From: Anaerolineales bacterium
GTDB lineage: Bacteria; Chloroflexota; Anaerolineae; Anaerolineales; Villigracilaceae
Assembly (NCBI GenBank): GCA_014860745.1
Contig: JACZJC010000078.1
Span: 62,001-126,000, forward strand
Reading direction: 5' to 3'
DNA: 64,000 nucleotides
The stretch's first letter is position 1; each line of letters begins with the position of its first letter. The notes beneath the pieces were generated by a model. The model was not told the DNA's origin. It did no database searches and worked only from the letters and a program-made list of their open reading frames with translations. Shown here one piece after another: positions 57,353 to 63,818 of this stretch. The translations under genes were made by a program, and so were the position numbers.

Positions 57353-57988
57353 TTATTGCGCTTCCTCATCGACGTTCGTCCGGTATAAGATTAAAAACGC
57401 AGGTGAAGTAACGCCGCCAACGCTTACTTCAATGGCCTTTCCCTGAATTTCAGCCTCCTTGGGGATGAGCAGCATGGCTTCCTTTGAAATCAGAATTTCA
57501 TCCGCATTGCCGATATCTTCCCCCATTTTACAAGCGCGGTTGACGGCGTCGCCGAAAATATCCACGCCGTCCACAAAGAGGATGTTTCCATAATCGATGC
57601 CGATCGAAACGTGGATATCCAGTTCGTCTGCGGTAAGCAAGTTTGACGCCTTAAGCGCATGCTGAATTGAAATCGCCGCGCGAACCGCTCCCAGGGGATT
57701 GGGCATGGTGGCAAAACAGTTGTCTGCCTGAAATTTAATCACGCTCCCGCCGTGACTGGTTACGATCGGCTCCACGGTCAACTGCATGCGCCGGATCATC
57801 GAAAGATAGTGAACGATCCCGTATTTTCGGGTTAGCAATGAGAATCCAGACATGTCCAAGGCAAGCACTGTGTCTTTCCTGCCATATTCCCGCCAGATCG
57901 AATCTTCCAGTTTTTTGCGTTCCTGTTCGTTTGTTTCCTGTGAGTATCCCATCAACATTTCTTGAAAGTGCAGGTTTTTCGGCAGCAT
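57353..57988 (-). CDS. Class III adenylate/guanylate cyclase-like protein
   Basis: A 211-residue protein starting MLPKNLHFQ behind AAGAGGT. After a 40-residue N-terminal helix region comes a cyclase catalytic domain: TVLALDMSGFSLLTRKYGI (first metal Asp in LDMSGFS), GGSVIKFQADNCFATMPN (second metal Asp in KFQAD), and HVSIGIDYGNILFVDGVDIFGDAVNRACKMGE. Metal ligands seem kept; the substrate-specifying residues cannot be judged here. A promoter -10 (TATAAT at 58016-58021 on this strand) lies 27 bases upstream. Confidence 0.82.
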   Translation of the reverse strand: MLPKNLHFQEMLMGYSQETNEQERKKLEDSIWREYGRKDTVLALDMSGFSLLTRKYGIVHYLSMIRRMQLTVEPIVTSHGGSVIKFQADNCFATMPNPLGAVRAAISIQHALKASNLLTADELDIHVSIGIDYGNILFVDGVDIFGDAVNRACKMGEDIGNADEILISKEAMLLIPKEAEIQGKAIEVSVGGVTSPAFLILYRTNVDEEAQ

Positions 57989-58015
57989 GGTTACCTCTTG
58001 AAATCGGATAATGCT

Positions 58016-58057
58016 ATTATATCGAATAGGCTCCAAAGGTTTTAACCCTTGGAGCCT
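58016..58057 (-). promoter_or_regulatory. Promoter and hairpin between rtcB and the cyclase-like gene
   Basis: TATAAT on the minus strand (58016-58021) is a good -10 box for the cyclase-like gene. Just upstream, AGGCTCCAAAGG (58028-58039) pairs with CCTTGGAGCCT (58047-58057) with one bulged base; it follows the rtcB stop by 6 bases and could end that transcript, though no T-run follows on this strand. Confidence 0.5.
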
Positions 58058-58063
58058 TTATTA

Positions 58064-59485
58064 TTAACTATCCCCGGGTTCGTCTGCCATGCGGACGATG
58101 CGCGGTGTGAATTTTCCCAGCACATCCACAAGGTCATGCTGTGCGGCGATAACCTCTTCGATGGGCTTGTAAGCTTGCGGCGATTCATCGATGCCGCCGC
58201 CCAGCAGGGTAACTCCGCGTTCTTTGAGATATTCGTCCCGCGCAGATCTGCTGATGGAATTGATCGCAGCCCTGCGGCTCATCAATCGACCCGCGCCATG
58301 CGAGGCGGATGAAAGAGAATTTTCCACGCCTCTGCCGCGGACAAGATAGCCGGCATCTCCCATTGAGCCTGGGATGATGCCAAACACGCCCTTGCCTGCG
58401 GGAGTAGCTCCCTTGCGGTGCACAACCACAATGCGCCCATCGGGAAGTGTTTCATGCCATGCAAAGTTGTGATGGTTTTCGACCACAGCGGCTTCTTTTA
58501 AGCCCACTGCTGCGGCCACCCGTTTGTGGATGATGTAATGATTTGCAGAAGCAAACCGTCCGGCCAATTCCATGGAGAGCCAGTATTCCTGTCCGTCTTC
58601 TGAATCGAGCGAAAGCCAGGCGAGATGCTTCACGCTGGGGTCGAGATCGGGATGCTTTTCCCTCGCGATTTTGCTGAATCGGTCGGCGACTTTGGCACCG
58701 ACTCCGCGGGAGCCGCTATGCGAAAGCAAAGCCAGGTGTTCACCGGGCTGCAGGCCAAAAAGGGGTTCATGAAGTGTGAAGGAACCCCACTCGACAAAGT
58801 GATTGCCGGTGCCGCTTGTGCCAAGTTGATTCATGGCGGTGTCCTTTAATGTCTTGAGCTGGCGCGTGGCATACCAGGCGTCGTCGTCCAATACTTTGTG
58901 TTGGGCTTTCTTGCTGCCCGTCCATTTTGCACCCATTCCAAAGGCTGTTTCTTCCCAGAGGGCATTTTCGAACATGCCTTTCTTTTGCCCGAGCAAATGC
59001 GGCGAGACTTCGTAGATCGAAAGCCGCATTCGGCAGGCTATATCCACACCGACAGCGTAGGGAATGACAACATTTTCCGTCGCGAGTACGCCGCCGATGG
59101 GGAGTCCATAACCGACGTGGGCATCGGGCATCAAAGCTCCAGTGACGGTGACGGGCAGGCGCATGGCATTTTCCATTTGGCGGATGGCTTCGGGGTCGAT
59201 CTGGTCCATGCCCCAGATAGGGAAGGGCAACGGCGACTCACGCAGTTCGTCCACGGTTGGCCTTTCGGGCTGAGCGATGCGAATACATTCGCGGGCGAGG
59301 TCTGCCAGCGAATTGTCGGCAAGGAAACTCCCGGGGTTTTGCCGCACAGCTTCCAGCCTGGCAAGAACCGTATCCCGGTCCATGCCTTGACTCATGAGTT
59401 TTTCAGCAGCATCCTTCGCGAGGCCGATGATCCTTCCATCAGGCCAGTTATTTAATTTCAGGATCTTTCCTGTAATGATGTCCAT
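58064..59485 (-). CDS. rtcB: RtcB family RNA-splicing ligase-like protein
   Basis: A 473-residue protein starting MDIITGKIL behind AAGGAAA. RtcB landmarks: VVIPYAVGVDIACRMRLSIYE near residue 125 (metal-binding Cys), LALLSHSGSRGVGAKVADRF near residue 255, HHNFAWHETLPDGRIVVVHRKGATPA near residue 340, and SLSSASHGAGRLMSRRAAI near residue 395 with the guanylylated His. RtcB joins 3'-phosphate or cyclic phosphate RNA to 5'-OH RNA using GTP and Mn2+ in RNA repair. No rtcA or archease gene is nearby. It follows the SnoaL-like gene by 34 bases. Confidence 0.9.
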   Translation of the reverse strand: MDIITGKILKLNNWPDGRIIGLAKDAAEKLMSQGMDRDTVLARLEAVRQNPGSFLADNSLADLARECIRIAQPERPTVDELRESPLPFPIWGMDQIDPEAIRQMENAMRLPVTVTGALMPDAHVGYGLPIGGVLATENVVIPYAVGVDIACRMRLSIYEVSPHLLGQKKGMFENALWEETAFGMGAKWTGSKKAQHKVLDDDAWYATRQLKTLKDTAMNQLGTSGTGNHFVEWGSFTLHEPLFGLQPGEHLALLSHSGSRGVGAKVADRFSKIAREKHPDLDPSVKHLAWLSLDSEDGQEYWLSMELAGRFASANHYIIHKRVAAAVGLKEAAVVENHHNFAWHETLPDGRIVVVHRKGATPAGKGVFGIIPGSMGDAGYLVRGRGVENSLSSASHGAGRLMSRRAAINSISRSARDEYLKERGVTLLGGGIDESPQAYKPIEEVIAAQHDLVDVLGKFTPRIVRMADEPGDS

Positions 59486-59519
59486 TCTTTTTCCTTGTGG
59501 CATACGATCGCGTAATTTT

Positions 59520-59948
59520 CTATATCGGGTCAGGTGGGCTGCAGGGACCTTCGTAGGTTAGGGTGGTGAAGACTTCTGCCTGCAAGACCCATTCGCCGTT
59601 TCGGGTGCGCTGCCATTTCGCGGCGTAGACTCCCAATGCGTTGATCGGAGTTCCATTCACAGTATACATGCCCTGCCAGTTGCCGAGTTCTTCGGCGATG
59701 CCCCATGTTTCGTTGGTGGTGATCTCGCGCGGAGTTCGACGATAAACTGCGGTCGGGTCGCTTTGGAAAAGTTCAGCCCAACGGTTTTCTTCTTCTTTCG
59801 CTCCATGGAACTGATCGCTGCGTCCGGTTATGAGGTGATAGGTGGACGCGAGCAAAAGGCGGATGCGTTTGGAATCTTTTTCCGCGATGGCGAGATTGAA
59901 GCGTTCGCGCGCAGAGCGGATCAAGTCGGAGGAGGTGGGTTGGTTCAT
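59520..59948 (-). CDS. SnoaL-like (NTF2-fold, DUF4440) protein
   Basis: A 142-residue protein. An N-terminal helix (SDLIRSARERFNLAIAEKDSKRIRLLLASTYHLITG) and strands with YRRTPREITTNETWGIAEELGNWQG and ALGVYAAKWQRTRNGEWVLQAEVFTTL give the NTF2/SnoaL pattern. These small domains bind or transform small molecules; no activity is clear here. The gap to the ABC gene upstream is 9 bases, so it is probably part of the transporter transcript. Confidence 0.75.
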   Translation of the reverse strand: MNQPTSSDLIRSARERFNLAIAEKDSKRIRLLLASTYHLITGRSDQFHGAKEEENRWAELFQSDPTAVYRRTPREITTNETWGIAEELGNWQGMYTVNGTPINALGVYAAKWQRTRNGEWVLQAEVFTTLTYEGPCSPPDPI

Positions 59949-59957
59949 GATGTTTGT

Positions 59958-61754
59958 TTATCCGGTTTCTTCCTGTTTCCACAACTCGCGCATTTCGGCG
60001 CTGGTGGTGAGCAGTTCATCGAGCGTGCCTTCCGATTCCACTTTACCATCTTTCAGCAGGATGATGTGATCGGCTCGCCGGAGAAGCGGGCGGCGATGGG
60101 AGACAACAAGACAGGTCATGTTTTGGTTCTCGAAGATTCGATCCCAAAGCTGCTGCTCGGTTTCGACATCCAGCGCGCTGGAGAGGTCGTCGAAAACGAC
60201 CAGGTCCGTTTCCCGCACAAACATGCGCGCGGCGGCGGACCGCTGGACTTGCCCGCCCGAGAGTTTGACTCCTCTCGCGCCAACCATGGTTTCGAGGTTG
60301 TCTTCCAGTTGTTCCAGGTCACTGTCCATAACGGCCAATTTGGTGGCACGGTAGATTTCTTCGTCGCTGCGGTTCATCCCAAGCAGGAGGTTGTTCCGCA
60401 AAGTGTTGCTGAACAGGCGCGGGACTTGTGCGGTGTAGGCACAGCGCGGCGGGATGAGAAAGTCGCCGGGCGATTTTAGGATCTCTCCATTCCAGAAAAT
60501 CTCGCCGGAATCCGGGGTGAGCAACCCGAGAAGGACTCGCAGGAGGGTGGTCTTACCGGACCCAATTCTGCCGGTGATCACGGTCAGCGTGCCCCTCTCG
60601 ATATTCAGGTTGATGTCTGTGATGCCGTTCGTGGACCCGGGGAAGTGATATGTCAGATGGTCGGCGGACAGGCTGCGGAGTGAGTCTGAGGCGCGCTTTG
60701 CGGGGTAGGTCACTTCGGGAAGCGGACCTTCCAGATCCACAGGGCTTTTTTCAACAAGGGCATTTATTGGCGCGTTTTCCATCAGGTGATACATACGCTG
60801 GACGGACACATTAAGCTGTTTGTAGCGTGCCCACAACATGCCTCCAAAGGTAGTGAGATCGCCCATGCTTTGAAGTAAATAAACGAAGAGTGAAAAATCA
60901 CCAAGGGTGAAGTTTCCTGTGCGCATGGACTGGCCGACAAGCACAAGGATGACACCGGTGCCAAGCGTGGATGTGTTGCGGTAGATCGAGCCCAGCACTT
61001 CGTCGAAAAGTTTTTCGCGAATGGTTAAGATTCGGCGCTCGTCATTGAGTTTATGGAAATGCCTGATGACATTTTTTTCGGCTGTGGCAACTTTGACAGC
61101 CTGCACTGCGCCGAAGAATTCGCCGATAAACCCGGTCACTTTACCGCCAGCCTGGCGGGATGCGCGGCGATAATGTTCGATGCGCCCGGTTGCGATATTG
61201 GCAATAATGCCGACGATCACCAACGGGATCAGCGCCATGATTGTCACCGATGGGCTAATGCTAGTCATTAATACAATTGCCACGGCAATGATGATCAAAC
61301 CGACCATGACGTCGTTGATCAAAATGACAAAGAGCGGAATTTCATTCACGTCCGTTTTGAAACGGCTGACCGCTTCGCCTGCCGAATCCGGAAGCTGGGA
61401 TGCGCCTGGGCGGCGCAGGATATATTTCAAAAGATTCTTGCGCAGCAAGGTGGACATGTCCGCGAAGATGGGTACATCGGCGTAATAGAATCCGTAGCTG
61501 GCCAGGACGCGTCCGATCCAGGTGGCGGCTAAAAATGCAACGATGGACCAGACGCCAAAAGTCAGCTGCGCTTCGCCGGTGACCATGTCGAAGAAGGCTT
61601 TGATGATGAGTGCGGGCGCGACCTGCCAGCAAAAGCGAATGAGCGCCACACTGATCAGATCCACGAACCAAAGCCATGGACGAAAGGTGAGCATCTCCCA
61701 GATAACCTTCCATGCGGGCAGGGCGGGAATTTTTTGTGTGAAGGTTGTTTCCAT
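59958..61754 (-). CDS. ABC exporter half-transporter with degenerate ATP site (second subunit)
   Basis: A 598-residue type IV ABC exporter starting METTFTQK. Six membrane helices in about residues 20-310 are followed by an NBD with Walker A GRIGSGKTTLLRV near residue 403, signature KLSGGQVQRSAAARM (intact), Walker B LVVFDDLSSALD, and H-loop VVSHRR. The catalytic Glu after Walker B is Asp (DD), so this Walker A/B site is the degenerate one of a heterodimer. The partner is the next gene upstream. A cluster of GGACGATGG repeats lies between the two. Confidence 0.9.
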   Translation of the reverse strand: METTFTQKIPALPAWKVIWEMLTFRPWLWFVDLISVALIRFCWQVAPALIIKAFFDMVTGEAQLTFGVWSIVAFLAATWIGRVLASYGFYYADVPIFADMSTLLRKNLLKYILRRPGASQLPDSAGEAVSRFKTDVNEIPLFVILINDVMVGLIIIAVAIVLMTSISPSVTIMALIPLVIVGIIANIATGRIEHYRRASRQAGGKVTGFIGEFFGAVQAVKVATAEKNVIRHFHKLNDERRILTIREKLFDEVLGSIYRNTSTLGTGVILVLVGQSMRTGNFTLGDFSLFVYLLQSMGDLTTFGGMLWARYKQLNVSVQRMYHLMENAPINALVEKSPVDLEGPLPEVTYPAKRASDSLRSLSADHLTYHFPGSTNGITDINLNIERGTLTVITGRIGSGKTTLLRVLLGLLTPDSGEIFWNGEILKSPGDFLIPPRCAYTAQVPRLFSNTLRNNLLLGMNRSDEEIYRATKLAVMDSDLEQLEDNLETMVGARGVKLSGGQVQRSAAARMFVRETDLVVFDDLSSALDVETEQQLWDRIFENQNMTCLVVSHRRPLLRRADHIILLKDGKVESEGTLDELLTTSAEMRELWKQEETG

Positions 61755-61764
61755 GTTAGTTCCT

Positions 61765-61830
61765 TGACGATGGACGATGGACGGCGGACGATGGGTTGTC
61801 CGTGGTCTATCGTCCACGGTCTATGGTCTG
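61765..61830. repeat. Direct and inverted GGACGATGG-type repeats between the two ABC genes
   Basis: Four degenerate direct units (GACGATGG, ACGATGG, ACGGCGG, ACGATGG) occupy 61765-61794. They are followed by partly inverted GTCCGTGGTC, TATCGTCCACGG and TCTATGGTC segments, so the region can fold. It lies in the 80-base space between the two transporter genes. Confidence 0.7.
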
Positions 61831-61834
61831 CTGG

Positions 61835-63592
61835 CTACGCCAGTACTTCTTCCATGCCGGTTTGCAGCAGTTGGTAAAAACGCGAGTTCGGGTCAGCAGC
61901 TAATTGTTTGCGGTTACCATATTCGCTCAAATTGCCCTTTTCTAAAATCATGATCTCGTCGGCGCGGTGGATCGTATCGAGCCGGTGTGCGATGATGATG
62001 GCCGTGCGGTTTTTCAGCAACTTATCTATCGCGCGTTCGAGTCTCTGCTCGGTGGCGGGATCAAGACGGGATGAAGCCTCGTCCAGGATCACGAGACCCG
62101 GATTCCGCAGGAAGACTCTTGTAAAAGCGAGCAATTGCGCCTCACCCGCGGACAATGATCTTGATCCTGTGTCGAGTTCAGTGTCCAAGCCTTTGGGTTG
62201 ACTCTGCAACCAGTCGCTGAGTTCAAGTTCTTCGAGGGTGGCGATGATCATTTCATCGGGTATGGAACGGTCGAAGAAGGTCAGGTTGTCACGGATGCTG
62301 GCGCGGAATAATTGCACATCCTGCGTGACAATGGCGATGTTCTTCCGCAAAGATTGAAGATGCGCATTCTGCAAATCTGAGTGGTTGATTTTTATGCTTC
62401 CAGAATTAACATCGTACAATCGGAAAATCAACCGCCCAAGGGTGGTTTTTCCGCTGCCGGTGCGGCCGAGCAGCCCAAGAACGGAACCAGCTTTCAGGTC
62501 AAAGGAGAGGCGGGTAAGGACTGAGTCATTTCCGTTGTACGAGAAGGTCACGTCATCAAAGGTCAATGCGAGCGGGCGTGACTCGATTTCCAAGCCAGCG
62601 TCATTGACCATTTCCACTTTGAAGTTGCGGAATTCTGTCAGGCGTTCGACACATGCGCCGATGGTTTGAAAACTTTCGATCTCGTGTGTCATAGCCCAGA
62701 ACGGCTCTTCCAACAAGCTGATGTAATGCACAAAAAGGTAGACCGTGCCGATAGTGACGAGACCGGCAGAGAAAAGCCAGTATCCGCTGGTGATGGCAAG
62801 CAGGGTGCCTGTCGTGAGGGCGAAGCCCATGGCGTTTTCGATGATCCAGCGTTTGAAATGCGCCTTGCGGTTGTGCCCGAGGATGATGCTTTGGTGGCGG
62901 AACAATTCGCGGATGGAAAAGTCCACCGCGCCGCTGGAGCGGATGTCTTCGGTACCGGAGAGTTGTTCTTCCACAAAGCCGTATAGATTCGCCTCCGCCT
63001 CGCGCCGCGCTTTTTGGTGGGGGACAGCGATATCCTTAAGCCGGCCAAGAATCCCGATGGTGAGAACCGAGTAGGCCGTGAATGCCAGACCGGCGCGCCA
63101 GTCTTCGATGAAGAGGGCGATAAGAATTCCGACGAGCAACAATCCATTTGCGATAAGGTTTAGTGCAAATTGGGAAAAGAATGTTGCAAGTTCGGTTACG
63201 TCGCCGTCGATGCGCTCGATCAATTCGCCCGGGGTGTGGTCGTTATGGAATTTCATGTCGAGATGAAGGGCATGTTCTGCCAGCTCTGCGCGCAGATCGT
63301 TGGTTGCGGTCCAGGCTACGTTTTCGCCGAGATAGGTCACACTGACTGCAACCGCCTGCTGAATCAATGCAATGCTGATAAATGCAATCGCTGTCCAGGT
63401 GAGGGTTTGAAGCGCTTCTCCAGCCAGCGCAGAATCGATGAACTTGCGCATGATCTGCGGAGCGAAAATCCGCAAGCCGATACTGCCGAAGAGGAGAGTG
63501 GCAAGCAGAACAAAACGTCCCTTTTGCGGACGGATATGGTCGGAAAGCAGGTCCCAGTAGGATTTGAATGAGAGGTTCATGGTTGTATCCAT
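61835..63592 (-). CDS. ABC exporter half-transporter with consensus ATP site (first subunit)
   Basis: A 585-residue ABC exporter. Six membrane helices lie within residues 25-310. The NBD has Walker A GLLGRTGSGKTTLGRL near residue 378, Walker B LVILDEASSRLD with the catalytic Glu, and H-loop IIAHRLDT. The signature is SLSAGEAQ, an altered LSGGQ. This combination (catalytic Glu here, degenerate Walker B and intact signature in the partner) is the pattern of heterodimeric multidrug exporters such as BmrCD or TM287/288. ATG codons at 63592 and 63580 both lack a strong ribosome binding site. An attenuator-like leader precedes it. Confidence 0.92.
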   Translation of the reverse strand: MDTTMNLSFKSYWDLLSDHIRPQKGRFVLLATLLFGSIGLRIFAPQIMRKFIDSALAGEALQTLTWTAIAFISIALIQQAVAVSVTYLGENVAWTATNDLRAELAEHALHLDMKFHNDHTPGELIERIDGDVTELATFFSQFALNLIANGLLLVGILIALFIEDWRAGLAFTAYSVLTIGILGRLKDIAVPHQKARREAEANLYGFVEEQLSGTEDIRSSGAVDFSIRELFRHQSIILGHNRKAHFKRWIIENAMGFALTTGTLLAITSGYWLFSAGLVTIGTVYLFVHYISLLEEPFWAMTHEIESFQTIGACVERLTEFRNFKVEMVNDAGLEIESRPLALTFDDVTFSYNGNDSVLTRLSFDLKAGSVLGLLGRTGSGKTTLGRLIFRLYDVNSGSIKINHSDLQNAHLQSLRKNIAIVTQDVQLFRASIRDNLTFFDRSIPDEMIIATLEELELSDWLQSQPKGLDTELDTGSRSLSAGEAQLLAFTRVFLRNPGLVILDEASSRLDPATEQRLERAIDKLLKNRTAIIIAHRLDTIHRADEIMILEKGNLSEYGNRKQLAADPNSRFYQLLQTGMEEVLA

Positions 63593-63620
63593 TATTTGCA
63601 GGGTCGCGATTACATTAATA

Positions 63621-63653
63621 AATAAAAAAACACGGCGCAGGCGCGCCGTGTTT
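63621..63653 (-). terminator. Attenuator terminator before the ABC transporter genes
   Basis: On the minus strand AAACACGGCGC (63653-63643) pairs perfectly with GCGCCGTGTTT (63638-63628), loop GCCT, followed by a T-run. It ends 28 bases before the first ABC start, so transcripts from the upstream promoter would stop unless it is overridden. Confidence 0.9.
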
Positions 63654-63675
63654 GCATAGACACAGAATTGGACCG

Positions 63676-63747
63676 TTAACGGTCAACAGGCGCGCTTCGA
63701 GAAGGGATGAATTTTTTGCAGGCTGTTGCAATACGAGTCAAGTTCAT
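63676..63747 (-). CDS. 23-codon leader peptide of the ABC transporter operon
   Basis: ATG at 63747 lies 10 bases after AAAGGAG (63764-63758). The frame begins MNLTRIATACKK and ends SAPVDR at a TAA. It is too short and too placed within the attenuator to be an ordinary protein. The terminal codons encode the segment (GAAGCGCGCC) that can pair either with the ribosome binding site region or with the terminator arm, so translation would control folding. The stop lies within the perfect palindrome GACCGTTAACGGTC. No enrichment in one amino acid is seen, so a drug or ribosome-state sensor is more likely than amino acid control. Confidence 0.65.
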   Translation of the reverse strand: MNLTRIATACKKFIPSRSAPVDR

Positions 63748-63788
63748 TTGAAGCGCGCTCCTTTCTTTTGGAATTTAATTACCGTTGC

Positions 63789-63818
63789 AGTTTACAACAA
63801 AAGCGCGCGGCTTGTCAA
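63789..63818 (-). promoter_or_regulatory. Promoter of the attenuator leader and ABC genes
   Basis: On the minus strand TTGACA (63818-63813) and TAAACT (63794-63789) are 18 bases apart. The start is expected near 63782, giving a leader of about 160 bases to the terminator. Confidence 0.7.

Follow-up and report, generated by a model that had tools for sequence, protein, structure and literature searches.

What is known of ribosome-sensing attenuators comes mostly from Bacillota and Escherichia coli, where they occur as isolated leaders, each in front of a single gene, as far as the excerpts of the literature compared here extend. In Bacillus subtilis, a translated small frame, bmrB, precedes the genes of the heterodimeric ATP-binding cassette (ABC) multidrug exporter BmrCD, and drug-induced ribosome stalling has been proposed to permit readthrough (PMC4191407). 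The vmlR leader of the same species carries a short upstream open reading frame (uORF) in an anti-antiterminator stem, a terminator and an alternative antiterminator, together with a stem that hides the Shine-Dalgarno sequence of the main gene and with NusG-dependent pausing (PMC9226507), and the uORF toiL of E. coli responds to several classes of ribosome inhibitors, which stall the ribosome at different codons (PMC12121999). Here we analyze a leader on the minus strand of a 64,000-nucleotide stretch of DNA, called the window below (positions 62,001 to 126,000 of contig JACZJC010000078.1, assembly GCA_014860745.1), from an Anaerolineales bacterium of the family Villigracilaceae whose genome assembly comprises 4.32 Mb in 82 contigs. 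The leader lies ahead of an operon encoding a heterodimeric ABC exporter and an RtcB-family RNA ligase, and it is very probably best explained as a ribosome-mediated transcription attenuator.

By its anatomy, the leader appears to be a real, conserved three-segment attenuator of the vmlR/bmrB kind with a predicted translated frame. The parts named in the original prediction, namely a promoter, segments 1 to 3, a 23-codon frame and a terminator, were all found by direct reading where they had been placed on the minus strand (Table 1); segment 1 overlaps the ribosome-binding site of the frame, and segment 2 can form either 9 bp with segment 1 (helix 1:2) or 7 bp with segment 3 (helix 2:3), as had been claimed. 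The proposed likeness to bmrB-bmrCD is borne out by the presence of a short frame, of a terminator and an antiterminator that are mutually exclusive because segment 3 is common to the terminator and helix 2:3, and of an anti-antiterminator, the covarying helix 1:2, that overlaps both the antiterminator and the frame. A likeness to erm-type leaders, proposed at the same time, holds at the level of logic; classical erm leaders act on translation and not on termination, and in the window an intrinsic terminator stands between the leader and the exporter gene. The structures of bmrB lie inside its coding frame, unlike the terminator of the present leader, which is outside the frame, and segment 1, which lies over the ribosome-binding site of the leader; moreover, the excerpts of PMC4191407 make no mention of bmrB belonging to a family of homologous leaders. 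The closest mechanistic match is vmlR, from which the present system differs in that one scaffold is reused ahead of many gene families, while toiL acts on translation and Rho-dependent termination and not through an intrinsic terminator, again as described in the excerpts of PMC12121999. The three-segment logic, in which the position of the ribosome picks the terminator or the antiterminator, is also that of the trp and his attenuators, but the present leaders are without a run of codons for one amino acid.

Table 1. Features of the leader and of the operon behind it, in window coordinates.
Feature	Positions	Strand	Remarks
Promoter TTGACA-N18-TAAACT	63789-63818	minus	similarly spaced TTGAC...TA(A/C)ACT match ahead of 43 of 45 type A leaders (exceptions L016 and L059)
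Shine-Dalgarno sequence AAAGGAG of the leader frame	63758-63764	minus	direct reading
Segment 1, GGAGCGCGCTTC, partner of segment 2	63750-63761	minus	overlaps AAAGGAG; direct reading and covariation
Leader frame, 23 codons, ATG start, MNLTRIATACKKFIPSRSAPVDR	63676-63747	minus	stop TAA at 63678-63676
Segment 2, GAAGCGCGCC, within the leader frame, partner of segment 1 or 3	63689-63698	minus	direct reading and covariation
Hairpin GACCGTTAACGGTC, stop codon in loop region	63671-63684	minus	folding; kept in type A leaders
Possible helper hairpin CTGTGT/ACACGG, would hold the foot of the terminator 5' arm	63646-63665	minus	weak
Segment 3, GGCGCGC, within the terminator 5' arm	63641-63647	minus	direct reading and covariation
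Intrinsic terminator stem-loop	63628-63653	minus	T-rich sequence 3' of the stem
ABC exporter subunit 1	61835-63580	minus	Walker B ILDE, signature LSAGE
ABC exporter subunit 2, BmrC/YheI-like	59958-61817	minus	Walker B VFDD, signature LSGGQ
DUF4440 protein, same operon	59520-59948	minus	
RtcB-family RNA ligase, same operon	58064-59503	minus	
Adenylate/guanylate cyclase-domain protein, probably same operon	57353-58036	minus	

A search of 61 genomes with subunit 1 gave some match in every one, and the leader was present in all 24 genomes of the same genus that have a near-full-length orthologue of this subunit, the window included; the identity of subunit 1 is 81-91% in the other 23. The named relatives of the exporter come from metagenome-assembled genomes of Chloroflexi/Anaerolineales, one of them a Candidatus Villigracilaceae, in line with the probable Chloroflexota origin in the original prediction, and adding such named loci to the same-genus set gave 45 distinct leaders ahead of the same exporter pair, referred to here as type A; seven further loci could not be read because of a contig edge (L027, L031, L063, L069, L073, L076 and L077). 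All 45 have segment 1 over the ribosome-binding site, segment 2 in a frame of 16-32 codons and segment 3 in a terminator, although the presence of AAAGGA among them is by construction, because the pattern by which they were gathered contains it. A wider set of 100 leaders (A3) was chosen for variety from 169 leader hits, the 69 dropped ones being near-duplicates together with weak or odd leaders, including L054, L078, L163, L232-L234, L241-L243, L246, L250 and L251. Absence of the leader frame or of the alternative pairings from related genomes would have spoken against the prediction; relatives have the frame (45 of 45 type A leaders and all 100 of the wider set, with the first ATG taken as the start) as well as the pairings.

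Covariation was measured as the number of alignment cells changed on both sides of a pair and compared with 500 shuffles, a kind of test that kinship among the leaders can inflate. Within the type A leaders, 95.3% of the cells of helix 1:2 are paired, with both-side changes in 8 cells against 1.2 in shuffles, while the number of further pair types was not above shuffles (341 of 500 reached it); helix 2:3 is paired in 98.7% of cells, and the terminator shows 56 both-side cells against 21.3. Across the 100 leaders, helix 1:2 and the terminator together gave 208 both-side cells against 39.4, with none of 500 shuffles reaching any of five measures; many of these leaders had served to build R2, one of two covariance models of the leader (R1 and R2), and the alignment was made to R2 and is hence fitted to this very structure. 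Helix 2:3 is absent from the covariance model, and it too covaries in the 100 leaders: both-side changes occur in 15 cells against 5.8, 91.7% of cells are paired against 90.3%, and the score is 0.212 against 0.176 (0 of 500 shuffles for each), while the number of further pair types was reached by 3 of 500. Duplexes between the segments of one locus are also more stable than those between segments permuted among loci, at -13.5 versus -12.2 kcal/mol for 2:3 and -15.6 versus -13.5 kcal/mol for 1:2. The claim that pairing 2:3 would disrupt the terminator agrees with these results, since segment 3 is common to both and both covary in the wider set. The possible helper hairpin CTGTGT/ACACGG is paired in 87% of cells, and because its covariation was not above shuffles it is left as a possibility.

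The frame is conserved in a manner that suggests translation. When the first ATG of each match was taken with no other condition, the stop codon fell 12-35 nucleotides past the start of segment 2 in all 100 leaders, while the other two offsets from the same ATG satisfied this rule in 10 and 26 leaders, and shuffled linkers stayed open in 45% of cases; the frame, its start and the position of its stop are thus conserved in 100 of 100, translation being predicted. Translation would pass through segment 2 in frame 1 for 83 leaders, frame 0 for 10 and frame 2 for 7, so that the peptides end in ..RSAPVDR, ..EVRLLTV or ..SECAC; because all three frames are used while the position of the stop is fixed, it is the stop position that is held and not the peptide. 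Among the 45 type A leaders, the distance from the start of segment 2 to the first base of the stop codon is 20-24 nucleotides in 43, and the stop codon lies within a hairpin loop in 43 as well, compared with a fraction of 0.48 when the flanks are shuffled. This hairpin around the stop codon and the membership of the leader in a family go beyond the original prediction. The peptides of type A leaders are under almost no purifying selection: of the changes counted over overlapping pairs, 99 are synonymous and 237 are not, a synonymous fraction of 0.29 against 0.24 expected. It is scarcely credible that the leader is a metabolite riboswitch or a protein-binding leader in which the short frame is incidental. 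The strongly conserved layout of stem and terminator speaks for such an element, but the frame open in every leader and the stop that is fixed in spite of three reading frames speak against it, as does a linker that varies in sequence and shows no conserved core (mean column identity 55% in alignment A1); moreover, Rfam 15 gave no match at gathering score in the window and none at E values up to 1 in six loci of the family (L081, L082, L083, L124, L131 and L185).

Folding of the window leader was computed for the RNA as it is before the 3' arm of the terminator exists, with the footprint of the ribosome masked. Helix 1:2 forms in the leader without a ribosome (0.92), helix 2:3 forms with codons 1-5 in the P site (0.81-1.00), 1:2 returns with codons 6-10, 2:3 forms again with codons 11-13 (0.64-0.99), and neither helix is left from codon 14 onward. 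When the limits were set slightly differently in a second script, the 2:3 value was 0.39 with codon 5 in the P site and 0.20 with codon 11, so that these two edges depend on the assumed footprint. In the wider set, 2:3 exceeded 0.5 in 89 of 100 leaders with the start codon in the P site and in 1 of 100 with the last sense codon there. The competing structures thus reproduce the proposed switch for the window leader at this stage of transcription, and they suggest how it might work. If no ribosome starts, segments 1 and 2 would pair, the ribosome-binding site would be hidden, segment 3 would be free, and the terminator would form; in normal translation, the ribosome at the stop codon would sit on segment 2, again leaving segment 3 free and the operon off. 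A ribosome that stalls on the start codon or on one of the codons right after it would cover segment 1 and leave segment 2 bare, and the bare segment could pair with segment 3 before the 3' arm of the terminator is made, allowing readthrough into the exporter-RtcB operon. The leader would therefore fire on impaired elongation of the kind that ribosome-targeting inhibitors cause. We infer a kinetic switch with the ribosome as its sensor and a drug, or else another cause of early ribosome stalling, as its candidate signal.

Several results weigh against this account. The claim that stalling on the first codons frees segment 2 for segment 3 agrees with the masked folding before the terminator is complete, with codons 1-5 in the P site, but not with equilibrium folding of the full-length window RNA, in which the terminator always forms, with probabilities of 0.99-1.00 at every ribosome position; since the terminator always wins at equilibrium, readthrough must be kinetic and occur during transcription, as in other attenuators. 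In 30 of the 100 leaders 2:3 already wins without a ribosome and 1:2 does so in just 63, so that the complete rule, off without a ribosome, on at the start and off at the end, holds in 59. The covariation of 2:3 was not above shuffles within the type A leaders (75 of 500 reach its value), and across the 100 leaders the number of its pairs with a both-side change was not raised (2 against 1.5; 224 of 500). The stop codons of L054 and L078 begin 47 nucleotides past the start of segment 2, a distance at which segment 2 would escape the footprint of a terminating ribosome, and five distant homologues of the exporter, L026 (70%), L028, L029, L030 and L072 (identity of 70% or less), have no leader in the 330-420 nucleotides read. 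Scans of the region found promoters and terminators at the level of chance (5 against 5.3 expected and 10 against 9.8, respectively), although the window leader folds better than shuffled sequences (z -2.94; 1 of 200 shuffles as good). With both scans at chance, the evidence from the single sequence is weak and that from comparison decides, and it is in the comparison of sequences that the parts, the covarying helices, the frame and the position of its stop are conserved.

Where the ribosome would be held is a further question, and a sequence-specific arrest peptide is a rather unlikely answer: a drug-dependent motif of the Arg/Lys-X-Arg/Lys or IF type would arrest translation near codon 10-11, and the next ribosome, queued at the start codon, would cover segment 1. 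Folding with both the start codon and codon 11 occupied gave 2:3 in 84 of 100 leaders, as this explanation would have it, but a ribosome at codon 11 alone gave 2:3 in 32, which also counts among the points against the scheme as a whole. In the peptides of 98 non-redundant leaders, Arg/Lys-X-Arg/Lys, a drug-dependent arrest motif according to the excerpt of PMC8298421, is weakly enriched (21 against 15.3, P 0.04), as one of nine patterns tried. The signal comes mainly from long leaders of DrrA and MFS genes and from some type A leaders; these share ancestry, and type A peptides evolve almost freely, so that this sensor peptide is a lead and not a result. Among the macrolide arrest motifs, IAVV/IFVI was found once in the 98 peptides (P 0.17), IF[IVT] was not enriched in them (6 against 5.1), and IFx(x)P occurred 5 times against 1.1 (P 0.0045, again as one of nine patterns). 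Segment 2 is mostly read as ..PSRSAPVDR, which recalls the RAGP/RAPP arrest peptides, and RSAP was therefore considered as an arrest motif and set aside as unproven, because all three frames occur. The proline codon ahead of segment 2 is CCT in 52 of 54 cases, which indicates a nucleotide rather than a peptide constraint and counts against such arrest, and RSAP does not occur in the main text of PMC12992588. The bases CCTTCTCG directly 5' of segment 2 (63707-63699 in the window, and in relatives) are conserved at the nucleotide level outside both helices and are perhaps a pause signal.

Matches to the covariance models place the leader in a large and as yet undescribed family. R1 has three matches at E values below 1e-8 in the genome of the window: the window leader itself, C4:6338-6491, which precedes a second exporter pair, and C29:47072-47226, which precedes GNAT genes. 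Of 152 genomes of the family Villigracilaceae, 138 had a match to this model (E up to 0.05), as did 206 of 400 genomes of the order, the family included (E up to 0.01). R2 matched 39 of 400 genomes of the phylum with at least 80% completeness (E up to 0.001), of which 24 belong to the family, 10 to the rest of the order, 2 to the rest of the class and 3 to lineages outside the class, one of these three being a doubtful partial match; at the outside loci L232 and L233, the leader stands ahead of an exporter that shares 47-48% of its residues with subunit 1. Other doubtful matches are L118 and L251, at the end of a ribosomal-protein-like gene, L243, which is weak, L234, which is partial, and L163, with the 3' half only. 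A search of the open PMC literature, with subscription papers and preprints outside its scope, turned up no attenuator of this kind in Chloroflexi/Anaerolineae in the excerpts returned.

The genes behind the family members were surveyed for 124 inspected matches, a set that leans to strong ones. The first gene encodes an ABC exporter of a second class in 54 and of the first class in 7 (L124 repeats L067), a GNAT acetyltransferase in 20, a DrrA-like ABC protein in 13, RsgA in 7, an MFS protein in 6, ABC-F in 3 (L243 with a poor leader), a RIO kinase in 3, a protein of an unassigned family in 3, a his gene in 2 and a restriction gene in 1, with none assigned in 5. Curated cut-offs were passed by ribosomal-protection ABC-F (L245) and RsgA (L239), and Pfam cut-offs by representatives of GNAT, MFS_1, RIO1 and RNHCP; the DrrA-like protein stayed below the DrrA cut-off (251 against 312) and the MFS proteins below every NCBIfam cut-off among the matches listed. 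RsgA-type GTPase genes stand behind L239, L241, L247, L252, L257, L265 and L268, in L247 followed by an RNHCP-domain gene. In the ABC-F leader at L185:1501-1651, read by eye, segment 1 is placed 5' of the ribosome-binding site and does not overlap it.

The two his leaders of the same order, L242 (2953-3042, minus strand) and L250, are weak matches to the model and share the geometry of the present leader, as would be expected if the latter were an amino-acid attenuator of the trp/his kind, on which the ribosome stalls at codons of a scarce amino acid. L242 encodes MNSRYALKHHHHHIHPPHGREVYVRVPVNG ahead of his genes, with five consecutive His codons and segment 1 directly 5' of them, in the layout of the present leader. 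No such run of control codons was found in codons 2-14 of the 98 leaders, where no amino acid dominates (the commonest, Ile at codon 5 and Leu at codon 6, reach 18 of 98 each), and the downstream genes, with exporters, acetyltransferases and ribosome factors, do not form one biosynthetic pathway, which makes amino-acid control very improbable here. By analogy with L242, the control codons of the present leader might be the first few, or a queued ribosome might stand on the start codon.

The predicted action of the genes behind family members on translation stress lends support to a ribosome-sensing attenuator, and the same genes bear on what it senses. It is possible, if short of an even chance, that the leader responds not to antibiotics but to general translation status, such as initiation rate, (p)ppGpp state, cold or faults of ribosome assembly. 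The RsgA, RIO kinase and RtcB genes behind family members would suit such a sensor, as would the scant purifying selection on type A peptides, but the first genes in the inspected set are mostly exporters, MFS pumps, GNATs and ABC-F, to judge from their families typical resistance functions. The actinobacterial whiB7 regulon, a uORF-controlled response to translation stress that reaches several resistance-type genes, offers a likeness (cited in the excerpt of PMC12121999). That regulon depends on a single central regulator, WhiB7, whereas here the sensor is present in cis at every operon. The placement of RsgA, RIO kinase and RtcB genes suggests that translation arrest is linked to ribosome assembly or RNA repair. 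The chances seem evenly balanced that the response of Anaerolineales to translation stress is a dispersed regulon lacking any central regulator, in which copies of one homologous ribosome-sensing attenuator scaffold came to stand before eight or more gene families (two exporter classes, DrrA-like ABC, MFS, GNATs, ribosome-protection ABC-F, RsgA, RIO kinase, and RtcB by operon). In such a regulon, the sensor peptide between the start codon and segment 2 could have changed freely and been adapted to each gene. In one group, the adaptation would be an Arg/Lys-X-Arg/Lys arrest at codon 10-11, which would leave a queued ribosome exactly over the start codon. If that is true, a homologous family captured by one covariance model would provide a readable translation-stress map of an uncultured phylum, candidate resistance and ribosome-repair genes could be named from the leader alone, and changing peptides on a constant RNA scaffold would provide a natural experiment for learning which ribosomes are stalled by which nascent chains.

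The gene order in the window is leader, exporter subunit 1, exporter subunit 2, DUF4440 and RtcB, and of 36 relatives in which 4 kb or more could be read, 30 have an RtcB gene downstream of subunit 1 on the same strand. In E. coli, rtcAB is switched on by impaired translation and aids survival of ribosome-targeting antibiotics, according to the excerpt of PMC5175333. In the genomes G001 (L105) and G013 (L112), the type A leader stands directly ahead of RtcB or DUF4440-RtcB with no exporter between, which looks like a loss of the exporter genes, and the search with subunit 1 found no close orthologue in either. Subunit 1 probably starts at ATG 63580 and not at ATG 63592, which opens the listed open reading frame, because the proteins of relatives open with MNLSF, MNLSL or MNLPL; the true start of subunit 2 may be ATG 61754. 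Eukaryotic ABCB transporters score best among the PDB matches of the exporter, with BmrD/TM288 and BmrC lower, and the nearest bacterial heterodimer chains for subunit 1 are BmrD/YheH and TM_0288; among the best 25 NCBIfam models, none reached its own cut-off. The pair has one degenerate ATP site of the BmrCD and TM287/288 kind, in that the VFDD of subunit 2 is without the catalytic glutamate; the signature LSAGE of subunit 1 is degenerate, while this subunit keeps ILDE and subunit 2 keeps LSGGQ. In several type B operons (L119, L133, L135, L138, L144, L152 and L174), a small gene of about 120-136 amino acids, forming one sequence cluster, lies between the two exporter genes, and its product presumably resembles the four-helix-bundle S23 proteins.

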